DNA from: Albifimbria verrucaria | Lineage: Eukaryota; Ascomycota; Sordariomycetes; Hypocreales; Stachybotryaceae | Direction: 5' to 3' | NCBI GenBank assembly: GCA_020081605.1 | Contig: JAHREC010000049.1 | Coordinates: 868,001-932,000, forward strand | DNA length: 64,000 nucleotides | Shown here: piece by piece, positions 3,590 to 29,851 of the stretch | Layout of the letters: each line of letters begins with the position of its first letter | How positions within the stretch are numbered: the stretch's first letter is position 1 | Made by a program: the position numbers and the translations under genes | Notes under the pieces: generated by a model | The model's input: the letters and a program-made list of their open reading frames with translations, nothing else | The model's database searches: none | What the model was told of the DNA's origin: nothing

Positions 3590-5650
3590 TGCTTTAGATG
3601 TAAAAACAGGACCTATTGTCATAGAGGAGATGACGTAGATGGACACACTCCCAACTTGATCAGTATTTCCTCTCCAAGAATTCTTTGACGATTTGCAATT
3701 CTCGGCTCTGAACTACCCAACAAATTCTAATCAAGAAATAACATTCGGCAGAGAAGACATCCGCCTCTTTCGGGACCTAACGGGCACACGGCCCCTAGTC
3801 AGTTACTGCCCTTTCACAAAAACTTAATTCATTAACTCATAAACTCTTCAATATCAACCTAAACCAATGTCATTGGTGTAGCGAGAGATTAACAAATTTG
3901 GCATAAATCAAATGCTCGCTGTTGATATTCGCATCGCGATTCTCGAAAAGAATCTCGGTATAGCATTGAAATGGCATCTAGGTGCTAATTCAGCTCTTTA
4001 GGAAGTCGAATACACTGTAATAACTGCATCAATTAAATATGGGGGCATTCGAAATCATTCTTGCCATGAACACTTTGTAATTTCCGGGCATCCTTGTCTG
4101 GCAGTAGAGTTTTTAGCATACGTTCTGATATCAATTGCACTGGCTTCATGAACACATGGGATTCCTCTGCTTCATTTTCATTCTGGCCTTGACCTATGAT
4201 ATGTTTTTTTTCTTTCTGGTTTTTTCACGTGGGGTAGGGACTTGATTGAATGATTCATTGTTGAACTCGCTGCTGTTAAATGGCTCTGGCTGGCGTCGCA
4301 AATACTGCCACCAAAGGCCCAGAGCAGTCTAATTTCATAGTATTCGTGCTTCTCATTATGCTAAAGAGATTGCTAGATATACTTTGGATATATGGTAGTC
4401 TATACATTATCCCTAGTGTGAGGGCTTTGGTTACGAATAGGCGTGGTGGCCATAATATCAGATTACGATCGGAGAGGTATCTCAAGACAGTAACATAGAG
4501 CACGCTGGCCTAATCTTACAATGTATATGCAATTTCGTGCTCTGAAAGAGGAAAGTCCCTCAGAAGGTGTTCAGCTTCCATCTTTTAGCATGGCATGCCA
4601 TTGGCCACCCCTACAGCGAGTCGAACGCTGAGGTAGTAACGTGACCTGCATCTGACAACCCGCAAGGCTGGGTATGGGAGAGTATGGGGTTTTCTGAAAA
4701 TTCACTTCTTCAAGGCCAGTACGGTATTGCAACTGGCAGCAATCCCGACGCATCCACCGACGAACCCAGGCCAAACAACCGCGCGCCGTGGTTGCTGCAG
4801 AGCAGGCTGGTCCCTGACTAGCATGGATCCTGGAGCCGCACCACCCAATGACAGGTCCTCGAGGGGCCATGTTCATTCCGATGCCGGGCATCGTTCTTCG
4901 GCGGCAGAGCAAGCCGGTATGGTTCCCGACAGCCAGCCTGGTACTCCAACACCAGAACCTCAATCGGGTTCTCCCTGGGATCTCGATTTGATAGCGCAGC
5001 TGTAATCGGAGATTATAGCAGCATAGGGAATCGCAGTAAGTTACCACCTGGTCACTGCCAAAGTATCAGGGGTAAAAGAATGATATAAAGCTGAGGCCAC
5101 GAAGCGTACATCGATCAACGGACAGTGGTAATACATATCCGACCTAGATTTCCTACGATTTGGAAACGAGCAGTTCCGGTTATGCCACAAGAGCTACAGG
5201 TTCTGGAACCGAGCTTTTCCTCCCTGTGGGCCATGGGTGGTCAAGTCGAGTATCAAACATACATTATACGCCCAGATGTCGGCAGTCAAGAGCCACCTCA
5301 CTTTCACTTTGCAAAACCTGGTAAACCTGGGGTTGAAGCTGCCGGTACCGAAACTGATCATAGGCCTGATCCTACATACTTCCCCGGGAAGAAGAGGAAG
5401 AAAAGCCGGTGGAGGTTATTTGCCCGGCTACGGCAGTGGTGGAAGTGATGGTCTTGGTGAGGAACAAAAGCCACTCAAATGGCCAATCATTTGTACATAT
5501 GGGAACAATTGGCGGAGTAGGGAATTCCTTAGCAATGAACCAAATGTATTCAGTCTTGTCTGCGAAGCCCGCTTCGCCCTGCTACTAGCCGCCGAGGCGC
5601 AGCCACTACAACTCGTCGCTCTACCCATCATCCCCCTACAATTGTCTGGC
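3590..5650. other. Stretch with low-confidence ORFs only
   Basis: Several ORFs of 70-160 codons overlap on both strands (4280-4498 plus, with a hydrophobic segment; 4571-5047 minus; 4727-5005 plus; 5125-5448 plus, ending in a Lys/Arg/Trp-rich tail). None has a recognisable domain or a clearly better frame than its overlaps. I would not call a gene here without transcript data. Confidence 0.4.
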
Positions 5651-7048: not shown

Positions 7049-8438
7049 ATGTCAGGCATCGAAACGTTGGGGGCCATTGCGGCAACAACACAGCTGGCCC
7101 AGATAATGTGCAAAATTGTCGAGGTGATAATCGAGGTACGCCAGAATTTACCCAGCCAAATGCAAAGCTGGAGAGATGAATTGGGCATCCTCAAGGACAC
7201 CATAATCAGTATATGTCAGAACCCGAATCTGCACGCACCCAGCCTCGAGATGACTCTTCATGCCATCTGTGCCAAGGTCGACGCCTTACTACGTTACTTG
7301 TCAAAGTACAAAATAGATCCACGCCTCCCTACTCACCAGAGGTACTTTCGTCTTTTAGGGCCAAACAGATAGAACCGCAGATCCTTCGCCATCTGTCAGA
7401 GCTGGAGCGTGACAAGGCGACCTTGATTTTGCAAGTCAACGCCTTGTTGCCTGACGCTCTTAATAACATCCACCGCTCGCAACACGAACCCGGCTCCTGC
7501 CGTCCGGCAACGGTTTCACACATGTCGTCCAGTAGGCGCCTCTCTATCATTAAGCCGTAATTGTTTTCACTGTACATGATATGTCAGGTAGACTGATCAT
7601 TCACTCTTGTCCTGCAGGTTTCGCTAAGCTCCCGCATTTGACACCATCCGTTGTCCCACGACCGGCGCACGGATTGGTAAGTGACATCAACCTCGTTGGT
7701 GACAGCAACCTCATACACAACCGCCACGTCGCTATGGTGGCATGATCTGGAACAGCGCTGATCAATTATATAGCCTACTCCACCTATGAGCCCAACTACA
7801 CCCATTCAAGTCACTGACATGGACAACGAACTCCCCAGTATGGGCCATCGAGCACCTGTTGTGGATGACTGTGACATAGAAGGCACCGAATCGGCTCCAG
7901 AAAGCATCGGAGCCGCCGAAGCGCATCAGCATGGTCCATCTTCTCATCTTGGGGTCTCCAATTTCGACGGAGCAAACATCCAAGGGAGTGTCTCCTTCAT
8001 TGGAAATAGTGATTCGCGATTTTCGGGAATCTTCCGGAATTCAACTATCAAAGGCACCGGTAGCATGATAGGACAGCACAATGGCTCTGTGGCACGGGTT
8101 TTTCTCAAGTCCTTGGGGCTAGTAAGCTACATGGTCTCCCAAAGGACCCTCAAGATCGTATCGAGTCAACCAAGCACGAAAGTAAGAGTGAATTAAAAAT
8201 CCTAGCACCTGGGCAGTGTGATTTCACTCAGGCTCAAGTCGTCGGTAGTTTTTCTTGGATTGGAAGCAGTGGTGGCGCTGGCGGCAGCTATCGCGATGCT
8301 TCCATTCATGGGGATCAGAGTATGATTGGAAATCATTTCGGTAGCGACTCGGCAGCTGTAGGCTTCTCTGACCTACTTTCTGGGCTTTCTCGAACCATGC
8401 GTAACTATCCAGTCGTGGACGCAAACGCGCAGCGTTAG
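7049..8438 (+). CDS. SesA-domain protein with duplicated HET-s-like (HRAM-like) motif
   Basis: Five exons: 7049-7305, 7359-7531, 7618-7676, 7774-8181, 8232-8438; introns have GT-AG ends and phases agree throughout, giving 367 residues with no frame correction. Residues about 1-130 match the SesA type of N-terminal domain found on fungal NACHT/NTPase proteins (predicted helical; pattern ICQNPNLHAPSLE then a KATLILQ helix). A Pro/Ser/acidic linker follows. The C-terminal part has two glycine-rich blocks, each with two short units: GSVSFIGNSDSRFSG with GTGSMIGQHNGS (about 7975-8090), and GSFSWIGSSGGAGGS with GDQSMIGNHFGS (about 8244-8356). Alternating small and hydrophobic residues with IGN at the turns resemble the beta-solenoid repeats of HET-s-related amyloid motifs. 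Inferred role: signalling partner in NLR-type non-self recognition. Introns 2 and 3 are less certain than 1 and 4. Confidence 0.68.
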
Positions 8439-8752
8439 GGTGGTTAAAAGAACATCGGGGAGTTCTAAGCTTGACAGCGGCATTAGAAAAGGGGGTTTAG
8501 AGGAATTACCGGATAGATAGGAGTGACGGGATAAAGCATTTATTGGCTGAATTGGTCATATTTCAATGGTATGTTGTCGGGGTCCGAAGAATTACGCCTT
8601 ACCCAAACGTTAGATCACAATTGCAAGACAACATTCAACAACCAAATAGATAGTTTCAAAAGGAGTAAGATCGAATGGAGTATTCTTATAATTATCATTA
8701 TTAACGTCTGGACTAAGTGATTTCGGCCGGTAAAAAAGAAATTGCATAACAA
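8439..8752. other. Intergenic
   Basis: About 300 bp between the SesA gene and the tRNA; no gene seen. Confidence 0.5.
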
Positions 8753-8845
8753 ACTCCCCGGACAGGCTTGAACTGTCGACCTCCTGATGGACGGTACATC
8801 TTGCGAATAACAGTCAGACGCTCTAGCCAACTGAGCTACAGGGGA
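8753..8845 (-). tRNA. tRNA-Asn (GTT) with a 19-nt intron
   Basis: Read on the minus strand, a D arm (GCTCAGTTGGCTAGAGC), a five-pair anticodon stem (TCTGA with TCAGG), a T arm (GACAG TTCAAGC CTGTC) and a terminal GGGGAG are present. The loop gives anticodon GTT, with an inserted 19-nt intron after position 37, the standard place for nuclear tRNA introns. The acceptor stem is imperfect: pair 2-71 is C-A and pairs 1-72 and 6-67 are wobbles. The gene may be slightly degenerate, or a base may be misread; the rest of the cloverleaf is convincing. Confidence 0.75.
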
Positions 8846-9639
8846 CGTTCTGTATAAAGCGTTGGAGCACTGCCACTACTAGCGAAACTAAGAAAACACC
8901 CCTGTCCTCAGGGTAAACAATTCATTTCCTACGGCAGGTACTAACTATTAACCGGCGCAAAAATGCACACGCGGTTTGAATGACTAGACAAGCTGCGTTG
9001 GCCACATTCGAATGGTCACGTTGATGTTAAATATGCTTTATGCTAATTAACCCATATAAATATCAAGAAAAGGGGTAAAGTAGATTATTGAATCAAGCAT
9101 CATCTGTTTCAGCTGTACGGTTTAACACCTGTCATAGATACAACGCGCAGCTTAGGAGGACGACGAGGTACATTGGGAACGTCCAAGGTCAGCAGTGGTG
9201 TGATGAAATAGTGTCTTTATAGAAATTGCTGGATATACAAAGGATAAAAACAATGATTGGCTATATATGGGCGATATTCCAAGGGTGCTGCTTGAAGTTT
9301 GACTTGGTGCTACCACTTAAGAATAAAATCTATAGCCATCCGTGCAACGCTATCATGTCTTAGAGGATAGACAAATCATGAAGTGGAGAAACTTATAATT
9401 ACTCCAATTGTAAGTCAAGTAATGCGAGTGTAGCCGTAAGATGAGCTAACAATCATCTAATTATAGTTAGAAAGTTCATTACAAACAAAGCACTACTCTA
9501 CTGGATATTATTCATGGGCTTAATGATTGAGGACCCTGTTGTGATCGTGCAGAGGCCCTGTATGGTGCGGAAATGGCATTATGCATCACTCAAAATTGAC
9601 TTATCATTAGAGTCAGTTTTCATCGTTTAATTATCAGAG
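8846..9639. other. AT-rich intergenic
   Basis: 3' flank of the homeodomain gene. AT-rich, no ORF or structured RNA recognised. Confidence 0.5.
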
Positions 9640-22296: not shown

Positions 22297-24285
22297 TTAC
22301 AAAAGTTCAGCTTCTTGGCCCGTAAACTCTTCGATATCCGCCTTGACCCATGGCATTGGGGTAACAAATGTTACATCGACATATCTGATACGCTCTTTAC
22401 GCTCCTTATTTATATCCTCGTCGAGCTGTTCGAAATCCCTGAAACTTCTTGGTATGCTATAACCTTCGGCATCTTTCCCTGGTAGGCTGGTCTTTTTCTC
22501 CTTCTCCCTTGTATAAGTGGCCAGTTCTTCGTAAGTTGCCTGCTTCAAGCCCACCATCTAGCATACCGACAGCGCGACCCGAAAAATCGAAGACGCACGC
22601 ACCAGAATCACCCGGAGCCGAGAAACAGGAGCGTGTCTTCCAAGATCCAATCACAGGTAGGCACCAACATATTTGGTCCTCTAAATTGCTCTCTGGGGTG
22701 CGAATCACAGCCTCGATGTCGCAGGCAACACCGAATGTGAGATCTGTCGTTCGGCCTCTCTTTCCTACTGGGAAGGGCTTCCGAGGGCCTGGCTTATATG
22801 GCCTGATGCCCGAGATTTGGAGAAACCCATGTTCATCCAATTCCAGTGGTTCCTCTTTCTCCACTTGTTCACATCCCCAGAGTTCAATGGCATTAAGCTG
22901 ATCAAGGCCACCTATATAGACCTTGTTCTGCTGACGACCGTCGAACTGCGACTGATCTAGTTCCACAAGAGCCCAATCCCTGAGCTGACCTTGGGTAGAG
23001 TGAACTCTTAGGGCCGGGGAATAGGCGACTTGTCCAATAATACGTGCTTGGGGCTGGAGTTTAGTTTGCTCCCGCTCAGTACTCTCTGTCTCTTGAATGA
23101 GACCTTTAGCGTATCGCACAAGTTGTTCCCACTGAGCTAGATCAGCTTCGTCCTTGGGAGTGGCGATGCCTTTGAACACCCTCCGCTGACGAATTCCGGC
23201 TTGAACTTCGACAATTTCAACATGACGCTTCATACTTTCGCGGCACTTCTGAATTGAACTCAAGGGGTAGGACATATATAACCGCTCTTTTGTTGTCAAG
23301 GGTCTATAATTCAGAGAAGAGTCCACTCGATTGGCTCCCAACGCGACATGGCGACTTATCAAGCCATAAATCTTTGTTTTGTCAGGTGCCAGCTGCCAGT
23401 AAAGCCCCATGGTTCCTCTCATAGTCCCTTGTGGGTCGTCCAATTCGTTTTCTGAGTTGACTTTTTGGGACGACTGAATGATCTCATAGCCCAGGGAGGA
23501 GTGTAGTCGGAGCGCATCTGTGTTAATCATTGCTGAATATATGTCCCTGTCTTGATCTCCGCTCATGCTCCAATGCTGCTCGTCAATCTGTTGTTGGAAG
23601 TGTTTGCGAAAGCTGACTTGCTGGGAGACAACCGCATCCATCAGCTCCACTTCAACACCCGAAATATCAGCATCCTGAAGAATGCGCCGGCATAGAAGAG
23701 CCTTTCTAATAGCTGAATCCCACTCAAACTCAATACCATTAACTCCAACTAATAGTATAACGTGGGAAGAGTCGTCTTGTCCATTAACGATCCTGGTAGG
23801 GTAGAAGAAACGCCAGTCACAGCCTTTAAGAGCTTCAATAATTTTGTGCTCAACTTCGGATGACCATTTTAAGAGAATATCGTGCTGAAATATAGGTCGG
23901 AAGGATTTATAACCACGGCCGCGTTCTTGGTATCGTGTCCATGCTGTAGAACTGGTTCTGGCGATAAGGACAGGGGGCCATCCAAGCCTTCATAGTACCA
24001 GTCTCTTTCTTCCTCTTGTGGTGGATATTGCGACTGCGGCAAACTATCCATATCTTCCACACTCCAATCGTCGCCCTCGCCTACGCGTATGCTTTCGTCC
24101 GACGTACAGGTATCTGATATATCATCAAGAATACCGGGACCGAATTCGACAAGTTCGTTTTCGAATGCAATCGTAGATGCAATAGTAGGCTCCTGAGCTC
24201 TCGCCTTGCTCCGAGGAAGCGTTACATCTATGTATGAATCAGATAGCTTTCTCTTCAGTGGAATTAAGCGGGCAGGGAAAGCCAT
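22297..24285 (-). pseudogene. Trypsin-like serine protease-fold protein, frame broken twice
   Basis: Three minus-strand frames together make one protein. The N-terminal 130 or so residues (24285 to about 23940) are acidic and low-complexity. A second frame, open from about 23950 to 22457, contains HDILLKWSSEVEHKI and then the protease-like core: SRHVAL (candidate His), DWALVELD (candidate Asp) and SAPGDSGACVFD (candidate Ser in GDSG). The third frame (22557-22297) holds the family-like end DVTFVTPMPWVKADIEEF. One shift lies near 23940 and another near 22540; no good intron explains either. It may be a decayed gene, or an intact gene with single-base sequence errors as seen elsewhere here. No signal peptide, so probably intracellular. 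It is divergent from the microexon gene. Confidence 0.65.
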
Positions 24286-24289
24286 TTTA

Positions 24290-25092
24290 TATGCAGTACT
24301 TAACTGAAACCTATAATGAGCTGTAAAGTTATTTTCAACAGAACACCTTGATAGTGTTCGTGGGTATGCGATGCGTTGCTAATTCTTTCAGTGCGGAGCG
24401 TGAACAGAAATAATTCTTGGTGAAGTCAGAAAGGTAGGTAGCCTTTCCCATGCCAGTCGCATATTTGACGTCGCTTGTCGAGACACCTGCCTTAAGTCTG
24501 GCTACAGTGCTTATGGCAGTTCGTACCTACCCTTCACCAGGTGCTGTATGTTATGATACATCTTCGGTGCGTCTTTTGGACGGTCCCTTTCCACCATCAG
24601 CCCGATTTTCCCGTAAGTGACCCCCGTTCAGTTGGTTATTCTACCTTCATTGCCGTCGTATTCCCTGCCATCGTTGATTCTGGGTTCAAGGATTTTTGTA
24701 CCCTGATGTGTCCCAACATGCCTCATCCTAATTCTTCCCCGTGTCGTGTGCCACTTCAATTCCTTCTTCCATGTATGCAAGGCTTGAAGTCTACTCGATT
24801 TACTAACCTTGAGGCTGCGCAGATCCGACGATTTCGTAAGTACATACCAACATTCTAATAACCTCAAGTTATGCCGTCGTCAAACAGGGTTCAAGAATAT
24901 CACTGACTCGATTTCTAATGTCCTGGTTCCGCAGATCCGCAACGCAGTGAGTAACTATAATCATTCCTTTCAGAACAAATGATGCTGACTCTTCTTATTA
25001 GCTAATATTCCGAATCTTTCGTGAGTTGATGCTATTCTCAGCGATCATCATACTTCAGAGTTGCTGACAACTCTCTGCGTGTGTCAATGTAG
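24290..25092. promoter_or_regulatory. Shared 5' region of divergent genes; possible unresolved 5' microexons
   Basis: Lies between the ATG of the trypsin-like gene (24285, minus) and the first exon of the microexon gene that can be placed. It contains several strong splice-like signals on the plus strand (GTAAGT at 24613 and 24836, GTGAGT at 24947 and 25021, CAG or TAG acceptors at 24600, 24822, 24934 and 25001), so further tiny exons probably exist. An ATG at 24513 is a candidate start. I could not chain these exons into the zinc-knuckle frame without meeting a stop. Confidence 0.4.
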
Positions 25093-27047
25093 CATTACAA
25101 ACGCACCATGGTATGTTTAGACTCTTTAATTTCAGCGATAAGCTCTAATTGAATGTCAATAGCCTGTGACTGTTCGTCCAAACTCTGTCTAGTTTATAGC
25201 GGCCCTGTCTAATAGTGTAGTGCTACAATTGCTTTGGTCTGGGCCATATTGCCCGTGATTGTCGACAGGTAAGTGGTTTTCTACAACATGCGGCTCCATT
25301 TAGTACTCAATTATTTGCAGAAGTACTTGAGAAGCATAACTAATCATTATATATTTAGAAGAAACGACGCGACTCGGGCTCGGTAAGTTCTTCTTTATCT
25401 TCAATTTATCCTAAGTTGCATTACGCTAATCATTCATAGACATCTCGTGTAAGCCGATACCCATGCCAACGATTATTACGCACCAGAAGAATTGTACTCC
25501 TGCCCCATAGAGCCTTATAGCTAACTCAAGTCTAAGAACGTAACTCCTAAAGGCCCCCTCCTGGTCCGGCGGTGAGTAATGGTTTTTATTATTCGTACAT
25601 TTATCTTCCATCTCAGCCCATTGCTCCAGCCGCTTGTACTCTCAGCAAGTGATATGATTGCAGTAACTAATTAACAGCACAGATCAAGCACAATGTAAGG
25701 TCTCCACTTTCGAGATTCTTCTGATAATTGCTGACATGCTCGAAAAAGGAGTCACTGAAGAGGAAGGTTTGTGTATTTGGTTTCCTCTGCTTTTGTCACC
25801 ACTCATCGTTAACTTTTCTACAGAACGAGAGCGAAGTGAATTTCTCAAAGACCCAAATATTCAAGAATGGACTGACTGACTATGGGCTAAAGGATGCTGC
25901 TAAGGAGGAGCCGCCTCCAAAAGTGAGTGATGCCATCGTTCTACTGAGGGAGTTAATGCTAATACTCTGATAGAAAGGCACACGTAAAGTGAGTGGCTTT
26001 CTGCCCTGACTACATATCTCCAAGCTTACCTTCGTTATTACTATCAGTACCTCGAAAAAGGGTCGAGGTACGCCACGTTGTCTGCACCAAGATGAGTACT
26101 TTTTGACTCACAATACTTTACCTATCAGCTCTATACATCGAAAGCTCGAGTATGGCTCCAAAATGAAACACGCTTATATCACACTGACCGTAAATAAGGA
26201 AATCGATGAGAAGCTCCAGATACTGGAGCAGGTATGTTCCTTCATTTATAATTGTTAACACTTACAAACTGACAACGTTATAGAAATATATGAAAGAGAA
26301 GAGTGTAAGTTCTATTCATAAATCCTTTTCTGTTCCCCGAGACATTGCTAAATATTGAACTACCAATAGACTTTGAAAAAGGAGCAGGAGGTATGTAATC
26401 GTCTATGATCCTAGTCAACACTAGCCTTACTTAACCCTTTTCTAGAAGTGCTACGACAGGGCCGCCGTAAGTTATTTCTACCGAATTTGACTATCGTATA
26501 GAATATTAACTTAGCTCAGAAATGCATGCTTGACCTAGAGGTAAGAAGACTTTTACCGCTGCAAATTCTCTGGCTAATATATCATTTAATAGAATTTCGA
26601 GTGTGAAGAGGTAAAGTTGACTGATAATTGGGTAATAAGCAACCACTAATGCACCAGTTTTAGGACGTTTCTACTCGCATCCAGGTATATATAACACCAT
26701 GCTTATAAATTTCTTGATTGCTGAAGTATTTAGAACGAGATAGAGAAGCGCCTCGTAAGTGAGATTTATGTTCGCAGGGGTAACGTAGCTAACATCTTAT
26801 TTAGAATGAGCAAAAGAAGAAGAAGGTAGTACTACATTCAACACTGTCGTTTGACCTGTCTTGTGTGTGCTGACCTAGCTTCATAGGCTGAGGAGAACAG
26901 CGTAAGAGAATCCATATCCTCTTGTCGCACTTCTCCAATTTCTATGCTAAACAAAACTTTGCGTCGTACAGCCTGAATCTGAACCAGCTGAGAAGGTAAT
27001 TCATTTGTTCCCAATAAAAAGTTATGAACTAAATGTTATAGGCTTGA
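25093..27047 (+). CDS. Microexon gene: CCHC zinc knuckle plus heptad-exon coiled-coil tail
   Basis: At least 23 exons in 1.83 kb. Resolved: 25221-25268, 25359-25382, 25440-25448, 25531-25571, 25617-25635, 25683-25694, 25749-25766, 25824-25922, 25974-25983, 26048-26067, 26129-26149, 26199-26231, 26284-26304, 26370-26390, 26446-26466, 26520-26540, 26593-26610, 26664-26684, 26734-26754, 26805-26825, 26887-26901, 26972-26995, 27042-27047 (stop TGA). Introns are 45-90 bp, GT-AG, nearly all phase 0, total coding 564 nt (187 residues). The first resolved exon encodes CYNCFGLGHIARDC, a CX2CX4HX4C zinc knuckle (RNA or single-strand nucleic-acid binding in known families). A basic linker, a 33-residue exon, and a Lys/Glu-rich tail follow: KYMKEKS, TLKKEQE, KCYDRAA, NEIEKRL and so on. 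Eight exons are exactly 21 nt. Upstream candidates 25093-25110 and 25163-25171 fit phase 0; the start codon is unresolved. I recognise no family. Confidence 0.75.
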
Positions 27048-27080
27048 TTCTTTCTTCTTCTTCTTTTTTTTTCTTTTGGT
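27048..27080 (+). repeat. Pyrimidine tract after the microexon gene stop
   Basis: A TTC/T-rich run directly follows the stop codon of the microexon gene and probably lies in its 3' UTR. Confidence 0.6.
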
Positions 27081-29851
27081 CCTCATTCTCCCATCAACGT
27101 TCGTCTTTGTGAGTTACTTCATTTCCGCTACTTTCTTTCCAAGATATTGGGATATAAATCTATACTGACAGTCAGAAAGTTATTAGCATGTATAGGTTGA
27201 CGGAGGCGGCAGTTTTATAGAATGGCAAGGCTATATATGAATAATGCAAACCAGGGTTTCATCATCAACTCATTCTTCATTCACTTGGCATTCGCCAGTA
27301 CTAATAGCATCTGTCGGCGGTTTCCACGAACGACCTTTGAATATCATGCCACCCAAGTCAACTTCATGTTGAAACGTGCTGATAGCCGAAGTAGACGTGA
27401 TCACGGCTCTTAAATCAGTTTATAGGGGTTGTCTGGTAGGAGACTCCATCCTCAAACATGGAGTAAGTATTTTGGATAACCTGGCAATGTTGTACTGTAA
27501 ATAGGGAGCACTAGTTTTAGACTTGACCATGTCGGATTGTGTCGCATCTATTTCTCTCTTTGGAATCACCCCATAGGTATTGCTAGCGTTCAGGGTGATT
27601 TAAAATCAAATCATTTACTCGAGTTTAAACCCTAAAATAAAAAGCTCAATATAGACCATCTACTACAACAACCGCTCGACTACAGCGTGAACAATCTATG
27701 GGGTGATGTCAATCGGTATTTCCAGGACAATAGTCCGGAGCGGAGCCGGGGCCAAGCGGAGCCAAAGCCGGAAGTACTCTGCACAGGAAACAAAAGATGG
27801 CGACACGTGACAGCATTTCTTTTTGGGAGGCCTAATACGGAAAACAGTCGAATGAATGATGCTGGTTGGGTGTGTCTGCGTCCATGCTGGCATACCCTGG
27901 CCCAGGTGAATCATAGCCATTATTAGAAGCCAAGCTGGACCGTGTGTTGGCCTAATGTCGTCATGCAGGTGACAAGATCTGGTACCGCAGAGCCAGGTCA
28001 GTGAACCAGATCACCGGGGCAGGCACCGAAAACGCCAACTGCATTTTTGCAGGCAGGACGAGGCGAGGCGAGGCGATGCTTAAGTGAGTTGTGGTCACTG
28101 GAAAGTGAATCCATGATGGGGACATGACTCATGTTCTTGGGATGAGGTTGTGCCTGGTGAGTGCAGTGACGCAGGGCAACCCCACGCGCAATGCCACAAC
28201 GGCCAGGCAGCGCCGCAAAGATGCTTGCGATTTTGCAATGTGTTGCATACCTGAGGCAAATGCATATATGTTTGTCTGTGCGTGCAACGGGGAGGTCAGT
28301 CGTGGCTCGTGAATTTCGGTGCCTGGTTGCAGACTGGGATAGGAGCCCGTGTAAGTCGGTTGAGTGCCTACCCCACAGCAAGCAATTTTATGTTTAGCGT
28401 TGGGGAGGGCCGAGGTACAGACAGAGGTGGCAGTTTTCCGGCAGAGGTTTGACTGTGTAGCTTATGCAAGGGGTAAGTGATGGTGGATTCTCTCCGATTG
28501 CTGGCGGGTGTTGGGGTGGCTGGCTGAACGGAACGGTTGTGGTGAAGGCGTGCCTGATTTATTGATTGACTGTCTCGATCCATCAGGTTCCATTCAACGT
28601 TTTGTGGAGGCCCATCCGGTACCGCACTAGTTAGCAGAAGCAGCAGCAGCAGGTCGGCAGGTCCAGACAGTTAGTACCTAGTAGGCTTGGTACTGGAGGA
28701 CAGGTAATGGGATGGGGCTAGACCGGGTTGGGCCATGTACTGGGAACACCTCGTGGCTGGCGGAGCGTAGTGCTGGGCGGGCGCGGCGGGTGCACCTGAC
28801 AAAGTGGGCAAAGTACCGGTACTTGTGGAGCAGCGCCCAGGGTCGGTTGTGGGACGTGGGCCGGATGACAAAACGTCACAGCAGCGATTGCCCCCAAGCT
28901 TTCCACTTCTTCCTCTCCGTCACTCACTCACCTCACCTATGTCATGACAGCAGCAGTATCGTGCTCTTCCTTTTCTGCTTCTCCGGCTGCACCGCTGAAC
29001 GGCCTTCTCACCCCACGATCCTCACCTCACCTTGCCTCGCTTCGCCCCCTGTGCCTGGCGCCGATTCCAGCCAACAGTCTCCGGCCCGTCTTGCCCCGAG
29101 CCCTTGCTGACAGCTCTTGATTTGGGGTGCGTGCTGTGCGTGCCCTGGACGTATTCGCATACGACGTTGTCAATAGGCTGCTGCTCCGACTGGCTGTGCT
29201 ACCTTGCGACTCTGACTGTCTTGGCTGCGTCTGTTGAGAAGGAGTCCACCACCAGGCAGCTGTACCTCGACTTAGGTATGACTCCCCTCACACAAGCTCC
29301 AGCGGTTCTTCGCCTTCTTCAGCTGCCGGTTACCTGGCCTTCACTTCACGTCACTTGGCTTGACTCCTGTGGCCTTTTCCCTTTTAGACCTTGATGTCCT
29401 ATTCAAGTAATCCGTTGGCCATTGTTCCTCTTCCGCTAACACCTCCTCTCCGCATCCTCAGTTCATCACCGCATTGTCTGAGCATCGAGCCTCCATTCGG
29501 CTTCGTTATTCCATTCTGTTCTATTCTTACCGGGTCCACTTATCGACGATCTCCTATCCTTAATTCGATCCGACCTTTCCTTCGTCGCTGCGACCTCACC
29601 TCCTCCTTCCATCAGCATCATCAAGAGCCACGGCCGGCTGCGATACGAAGCTTCATTAGGTCCGCCGTCGCGAGCTCCTGATTGCGAGCTTCTCCGCACA
29701 CCGCCGGCATCAATTCCGTCCAACTCCCTGCGAAGATTCGACCGGCACCTATAACTCCGTCACTCTGGCTTTCCGCGCGCTCCGACTTGCCGGCCTCGCA
29801 GTCGGCCTTGGGTTAAGTGCCTTCACTGCGTACCAACGTAACCGCGCGCAG
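27081..29851. other. Intergenic at the accessory/core boundary
   Basis: About 2.8 kb with no credible gene. Composition changes from AT-rich to GC-rich around 27.7-28 kb. Short CAG repeats occur at about 28631-28650. The right end (29300-29850), with runs of CT-rich sequence, is probably the promoter and 5' leader of the RING gene. Confidence 0.5.

Follow-up and report, generated by a model that had tools for sequence, protein, structure and literature searches.

A putative zinc-knuckle gene of the ascomycete Albifimbria verrucaria composed mostly of microexons

The window analysed here is a 64-kb stretch of DNA (C36:868001-932000) in the genome of Albifimbria verrucaria, which comprises 48.4 Mb in 41 contigs. 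Its G+C content changes near 28 kb, from roughly 45% on the left to roughly 55% on the right. Positions 1-28000 carry a NACHT/WD40 ORF, another with a homeodomain and several that match nothing in Pfam, and positions 28000-64000 contain conserved genes, including those for a class II aminoacyl-tRNA synthetase and BRO1/ALIX. On the plus strand at 25108-27047, a coding model built by hand comprises 22 exons with 194 codons plus a stop, separated by 21 introns. Upstream of it lie further splice signals and, on the opposite strand, two ORFs without Pfam match that presumably belong to one divergent gene. The features are as follows, where "model" denotes the hand-built model and "chain" the frame-blind chaining of introns.

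22457..24285, minus strand: divergent neighbour gene with likely start ATG 24285 (ORFs 22457-23989 and 23869-24378), which limits the 5' region
24706..25110, plus strand: upstream chain, 5' UTR or N-terminal coding extension; donors 24773, 24836, 24947, 25021; acceptors 24822, 24887/24934, 25001, 25092
25002..25020, plus strand: 19-nt candidate "poison" microexon, from splice signals; its inclusion breaks the frame between the path from 24775 and the knuckle
25093..25110, plus strand: 18-nt exon ending in CACCATG, from sequence and chain; ATG 25108 is the downstream start candidate
25221..25268, plus strand: 48-nt exon with the zinc knuckle CYNCFGLGHIARDCRQ (Pfam PF00098); an in-frame TAG lies immediately 5' at 25218-25220
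25359..25382, plus strand: 24-nt exon KKRRDSGS (model)
25440..25448, plus strand: 9-nt exon TSR (model)
25553..25571, plus strand: 19-nt exon with uncertain boundaries and an AAAG acceptor (model)
25678..25694, plus strand: 17-nt exon, acceptor 25677 or 25682 (splice signals, model)
25749..25766, plus strand: 18-nt exon ESLKRK (model)
25824..25922, plus strand: 99-nt exon (model; recovered by protein search of its own genome)
25974..25988, plus strand: 15-nt exon KGTRK (model)
26048..26067, plus strand: 20-nt exon (model)
26129..26231, plus strand: 103-nt exon, which finishes the codon begun by the 20-nt exon (model; own-genome protein search)
26284..26304, plus strand: 21-nt exon KYMKEKS (model and chain)
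26370..26390, plus strand: 21-nt exon TLKKEQE (model and chain)
26446..26466, plus strand: 21-nt exon KCYDRAA (model and chain)
26520..26540, plus strand: 21-nt exon KCMLDLE (model and chain)
26593..26610, plus strand: 18-nt exon NFECEE (frame-aware choice)
26664..26684, plus strand: 21-nt exon DVSTRIQ (frame-aware choice)
26734..26754, plus strand: 21-nt exon NEIEKRL (frame-aware choice)
26805..26825, plus strand: 21-nt exon NEQKKKK (model, and chain at threshold 5 only)
26887..26901, plus strand: 15-nt exon AEENS (model)
26972..26995, plus strand: 24-nt exon PESEPAEK (model)
27042..27047, plus strand: 6-nt coding end GCT TGA (model); the exon may extend to 27108
27109..27175, plus strand: possible 3'-UTR intron (chain, score 13.2)

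The existence of an unusual chain of introns at this locus was established without regard to reading frame, by scoring each donor, branch point and acceptor against generic matrices for Pezizomycotina, not fitted to this genome, and by chaining compatible introns. At threshold 7 this frame-blind scan yields 25 chained introns at 24773-27175 on the plus strand with a score of 289.9, while no other chain in the window, whichever the strand, exceeds 38.6 and the top chain in 60 dinucleotide shuffles of the locus 44.3. Other sequence of the same genome, 250 kb or about 0.5% of it, taken from 25 hand-picked loci (L002-L026; 20 of them spaced apart, the remaining five taken at zinc-knuckle sites), gave a top chain of 68.2 with seven introns and a runner-up of 52.0 with five; a locus outside this sample, L027, reached later via a pattern search, contains a chain of 95.7 with eight introns. 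The original prediction of a chain of tiny exons bounded by GT-AG introns, and of an unusual architecture, is thus borne out. The start at 25093 proposed with it is too far downstream for the intron chain, which begins at 24773 at threshold 7 and at 24364 at threshold 5, and which with the additional donor-acceptor pair in the 3' flank (27109-27175) runs past the coding part on both sides.

In the coding model the exons measure 3, 48, 24, 9, 19, 17, 18, 99, 15, 20, 103, 21, 21, 21, 21, 18, 21, 21, 21, 15, 24 and 6 nt, so that 19 of the 22 are no longer than 30 nt and 18 have a length divisible by three; 16 of the 20 internal exons are symmetric phase 0, in broad agreement with the earlier description of almost all exons as phase 0. 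At least 23 exons of 6-48 nt with a single one of 99 nt, introns of 45-90 bp and a frame of 187 codons had been proposed: the many, mostly tiny exons, the short GT-AG introns and the uninterrupted frame are retained, and the figures become 22 exons of 3-103 nt, two of which are long (99 and 103 nt), introns of 46-110 nt with a median of 57, and 194 codons plus stop. The coding fraction, put at about 31 percent, computes to 30.2%.

Evidence that this frame is coding comes from several sides. No stop occurs in the 194 codons of frame 0, as compared to 11 and 14 stops in the 193 codons of frames 1 and 2, and a codon log-likelihood for which 21 long stop-to-stop frames (10,945 codons) served as training set is positive in frame 0 (+0.17 bits per codon) and negative in each of the five others (-0.02 to -0.21). 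Exons are purine-rich (A/G) and introns T-rich. Upon shuffling of exon interiors with the model splice sites fixed, none of 2000 sequences stayed open, and when splice sites could be chosen freely, not one of 100 attained the ratio between frame-constrained and unconstrained score seen in the real sequence. Frame-blind exon lengths are divisible by three in 22 of 31 cases at threshold 5 (binomial about 2e-5), and in 13 of 24 cases when the threshold is raised to 7 (p 0.03). Counting against the model in its details, four of 100 sequences with random frameshifts in the exons equalled the real one, and hence many alternative splice sites exist; also, the frame-constrained optimum on intron score alone (251.3, 24 introns) leaves the zinc-knuckle frame in mid-gene. 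Splice choices within 25449-25694, where the 19-nt exon relies on an AAAG acceptor, are uncertain, and the last three modelled introns are weak (scores 5.2-7.7). The frame-blind chain recovers five of the seven 21-nt exons when the threshold is 5, and four of them when it is 7; the rest are frame-aware choices. Retention of any of 16 of the 21 modelled introns brings in an in-frame stop, and the longest unspliced plus-strand frame within 25100-27050 spans only 82 aa from stop to stop, and therefore the zinc-knuckle protein cannot be read without the removal of many introns.

At the 5' end, the exons 24775-24835, 24888-24946 and 25093-25110 are in frame with the knuckle only when 25002-25020 is skipped, and the computed path from 24775 also contains an optional 3-nt exon, CCT. 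The extension from 24775 has no stop in 45 codons and a codon log-likelihood ratio of +0.11 per codon, and that from 24706 has no stop in 68 codons with a ratio of -0.03; by splice-signal score, paths from ATG 24450 or 24513 are higher (56.9 vs 40.1). Either translation starts at ATG 25108 (CACCATGG) downstream of a 5' UTR, or the 19-nt piece serves as a cassette whose inclusion breaks the frame. The protein would be longer than about 194 aa if an upstream start were used.

The predicted protein carries a zf-CCHC zinc knuckle (PF00098) of the form CX2CX4HX4C at the start of the frame, where it had been expected, with 22.3 bits over a gathering cut-off of 20.8, and the locus scores 28.2 bits in the genome scan. 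A Pfam search of the protein up to E 1 returned zinc-knuckle families only, with no NACHT or ankyrin. Judging by its sequence, the knuckle likely binds nucleic acid. The protein is basic (pI 9.1), and the tail following the knuckle is charged, probably helical, and bears a weak heptad-spaced hydrophobic stripe, for which shuffling of three overlapping, hand-chosen segments gave p values of 0.001-0.007 for the best single register and 0.009-0.05 for the a/d pair. The N-terminus of the 25108 model, MCYNCFGLGHIARDC, has no apparent signal peptide as judged by eye, with the upstream start as the alternative.

For the 194-aa and the extended 239-aa models, no homologues were found at E<=0.1 (68 candidates scored) or at E<=10 (182 scored), in a search that scores only candidates with shared exact 5-residue words; counterparts of a microexon gene elsewhere may be mis-annotated. 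As a control, the neighbouring BRO1/ALIX protein, assembled from ORFs of the window, had 7997 candidates scored, of which 1235 matched at E<=1e-30; among the 120 matches listed, those that carry a name come from ascomycetes. It is 90% identical to a metagenome protein, 82% to Cladobotryum mycophilum, and 78% each to Claviceps lovelessii and Verticillium longisporum, which points to a sordariomycete host, perhaps near Hypocreales. Solved structures gave 13 weak matches (E 0.09-0.8) confined to the knuckle. Within the genome, no second copy was detected in the searches made: the DNA search returned only the gene itself, and the protein search three pieces of itself and one match at E 1.6. Of 42 zinc-knuckle matches at E<=1, 36 exceed the cut-off and one is the present gene; none of five other zinc-knuckle sites lies in a comparable chain, the best having the five introns scoring 52.0, in L026.

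Other accounts of the locus were tried as well. Expansion of introner-like elements is unsupported, since the 21 intron interiors are mutually no more alike than shuffles (mean pairwise score 6.18 vs 6.15 in 40 shuffles). The eight exons of 18-21 nt are likewise no more similar to each other than shuffles; exon-plus-intron units score slightly above shuffles (8.47 vs 7.97, sd 0.27), and hence an old duplication of such units is possible. A host gene for snoRNAs or other small RNAs was discarded, as at the gathering cut-off Rfam matched only one tRNA in the window, away from the locus, a permissive search of the locus (E<=5) gave one sub-threshold match, outside introns, and the C-box motif is absent from the modelled introns. 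Repeat-induced point mutation was set aside too, the TA/AT of 1.04 and the substrate index of 1.08 measured here being attributed to splice signals.

Taken together, the locus is best explained as a genuine orphan coding gene of an ascomycete for a basic zinc-knuckle protein of about 194 aa, spliced by intron definition and with splicing-gated output, to which we assign a probability of about 0.6. We infer that the gene is transcribed and spliced and that its product binds RNA. The mRNA would be put together from about 22 pieces, mostly microexons, whereby each short intron, equipped with a donor, a branch point and an acceptor, would be recognised as a unit, and hence very small exons between introns would be tolerated. 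According to PMC6616335, ascomycete introns are small and splice sites pair across introns, with intron definition in Pezizomycotina and Schizosaccharomyces pombe, which relaxes the usual lower limit of exon size, and in Caenorhabditis elegans the only two microexons independent of the bridging factor PRP-40 adjoin very short introns (PMC8378409). Because most introns hold in-frame stops, a single unremoved intron would lead to a truncated or degraded product, which would make the gene near all-or-none. Among fungal alternative splicing events, intron retention is given as 61% and exon skipping as 3% in PMC3925392; together with the 16 of 21 stop-bearing introns, this makes gating by complete splicing the better default and, in our estimation, the best-supported mechanism.

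The same structure could instead serve combinatorial splicing, along the lines of the variable proteins by exon skipping suggested at first, in which phase-0 cassettes, chiefly the 21-nt exons of one heptad each, would be skipped or included to generate isoforms that keep the helical register. With 16 of 20 internal exons in symmetric phase 0 and seven of exactly seven residues, together with the heptad-spaced stripe in the tail, isoform diversity by skipping is possible, and Tuber nank genes reportedly splice codon-sized microexons alternatively (PMC4986451 and PMC3689799). However, skipping is the rare class of fungal event just cited, retention is favoured under intron definition, one of the eight neighbouring exons has 18 nt so that the register is not maintained throughout, and two of the seven 21-nt exons depend on a frame-aware splice choice alone. 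Diversity by exon skipping is therefore less likely than gating, and as the principal explanation of the locus we consider it rather unlikely. A non-coding or decaying spliced RNA, whose frame would be chance or a relic and whose introns or splicing would be functional, including as a small-RNA host, might account for the intron chain overrunning the coding part both ways and for the lack of homologues among the 68 and 182 candidates scored, but the open frame, the codon bias and the zinc knuckle argue against it, as do the Rfam matches lying outside introns only and the introns without C box, and this explanation is decidedly improbable. That a splice-motif-rich region is in fact spliced otherwise, for example into far fewer and longer exons, draws on the generic matrices, the many near-equivalent splice choices, a prediction made from sequence alone and the four frameshifted controls that equalled the real sequence, and is nevertheless most improbable given a chain score of 290, where 60 shuffles reach no more than 44.3 and 250 kb of other sequence no more than 68.2, and a longest unspliced frame of 82 aa.

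Returning to the reading as a splicing-gated coding gene, architectures of this kind have been described chiefly in a few animals and in a truffle. The earlier remark that none of this type was known from ascomycetes does not hold, since the NACHT-ANK (nank) genes of Tuber melanosporum contain codon-sized microexons (Iotti et al. 2012, as cited in PMC4986451, PMC3689799 and PMC10197012) and two codon-sized arrays occur in the same genome as the present gene. The nank genes are similar to it in belonging to a filamentous ascomycete and in having tens of microexons, within one gene family in Tuber. They differ in that their exons are codon-sized and in NLR genes, whereas in the present gene exons are 3-103 nt, microexons span the whole gene, introns are unlike each other, the product is a zinc-knuckle protein and a second copy was not found; the sole 3-nt exon of its model is the start exon (ATG). 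Schistosome micro-exon genes (MEGs; PMC10526429) share the 10-20 very short exons, mostly 3n, and a basic/acidic C-terminal part, but comprise 35 genes with introns of 0.1-5 kb and a signal peptide, compared with introns of about 57 nt, no apparent signal peptide in the 25108 model and no second copy found here. Aphid bicycle genes (PMC9168663) likewise have many unusually small internal exons of nearly a single phase and little detectable similarity, but those exons are nearly all phase 2 and the genes form a large family of putative effectors, while the present gene is mostly phase 0 and a family was not found. In the filamentous fungus Trichoderma virens, probably of the same class as the host, the Xlr2 switch consists of one regulated microexon in an otherwise ordinary gene, as compared to about 19 in the present small gene (PMC11121469), and microexons also occur in otherwise ordinary P450 genes of the fungus Phanerochaete (PMC1184071). 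Among the titles and abstract openings of the literature matches listed, no fungal gene with the present architecture was apparent.

The two arrays were reached by a genome-wide search for single-codon exons between GTAAGT introns, which gave 58 matches vs 7 in the reversed control, 47 of them at two loci (39 on C22 and 8 on C30). The GTAAGT-YAG-GTAAGT pattern with exons of 9-39 nt was not enriched (115 vs 273 in the reversed control) and is therefore unusable for counting microexon genes, and neither were the versions with GTATGT (5 vs 5), GTGAGT (4 vs 6) or a 6-nt exon (6 vs 13). At C30:52599-53304 on the minus strand (within L027, C30:49001-57000), nine units of 77-78 bp each consist of an intron of 74-75 nt and one codon (CGA GAA CGA CGA TCA TAC TGG TTT CGA). 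This array is placed where an ankyrin repeat ends, and after the next ankyrin repeats come two further units, the second irregular. The ORFs there match NPHP3_N (NACHT-like) and ankyrin and presumably form one gene of the NLR kind; the array fits the description of Tuber nank genes in the sources cited above. At C22:1680641-1683678 on the minus strand (within L028, C22:1679001-1688500), about 45 tandem units of 71 bp each comprise an intron of about 68 nt and one codon. The 44 junctions read give no stop in 44 codons, and 45 junctions delimit 44 units when the pattern is loosened. Variability in the codon columns (1.6, 2.0 and 1.6 bits) ranks with the highest of the columns compared, intron columns having 0 to 1.8 bits. 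The exon before the array, MKASMFFWVALSTTGLGAAISRTKLSSRDLEAR, is signal-peptide-like by eye (best 10-residue hydropathy 1.66), and about 180 bp past the last clear unit an acceptor is directly followed by TAA. From its sequence, the locus resembles a gene for a secreted peptide in which each exon would encode a single residue of the mature part. Three very different microexon loci were thus seen in this genome, namely the present gene, C22 and C30.

It is conceivable, but quite unlikely, that the three form a dedicated microexon programme for varying proteins residue by residue, with a knuckle gene of heptad cassettes keeping the helical register and two single-codon-array genes, one for an NLR and one for a signal-peptide-like product. 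For a compact ascomycete, a gene made up wholly of microexons would provide a natural test case for the smallest exon that the fungal spliceosome handles and for whether intron definition alone is enough. Such genes would probably escape automatic gene finders, so that annotations may lack a class of orphan fungal genes. With the codon-sized arrays, a phenomenon cited from the truffle in the sources above is extended, and splicing diversity at the level of single residues becomes open to testing.

Some minor observations concern the background loci. Among the hand-picked loci, the highest chain score, 68.2, belongs to seven introns with exons of 36-101 nt at 8198-9171 on the plus strand of L004 (C15:800001-810000). 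In L026 (C10:4226001-4236000), a multi-zinc-knuckle locus at 4393-4939 on the minus strand overlaps the five-intron chain, with exons of 102, 14, 15 and 95 nt. Extremely AT-rich blocks are present in L015 (C15:5200001-5210000), with a G+C content of 11.2%, and in L021 (C36:600001-610000), with 15.5%.
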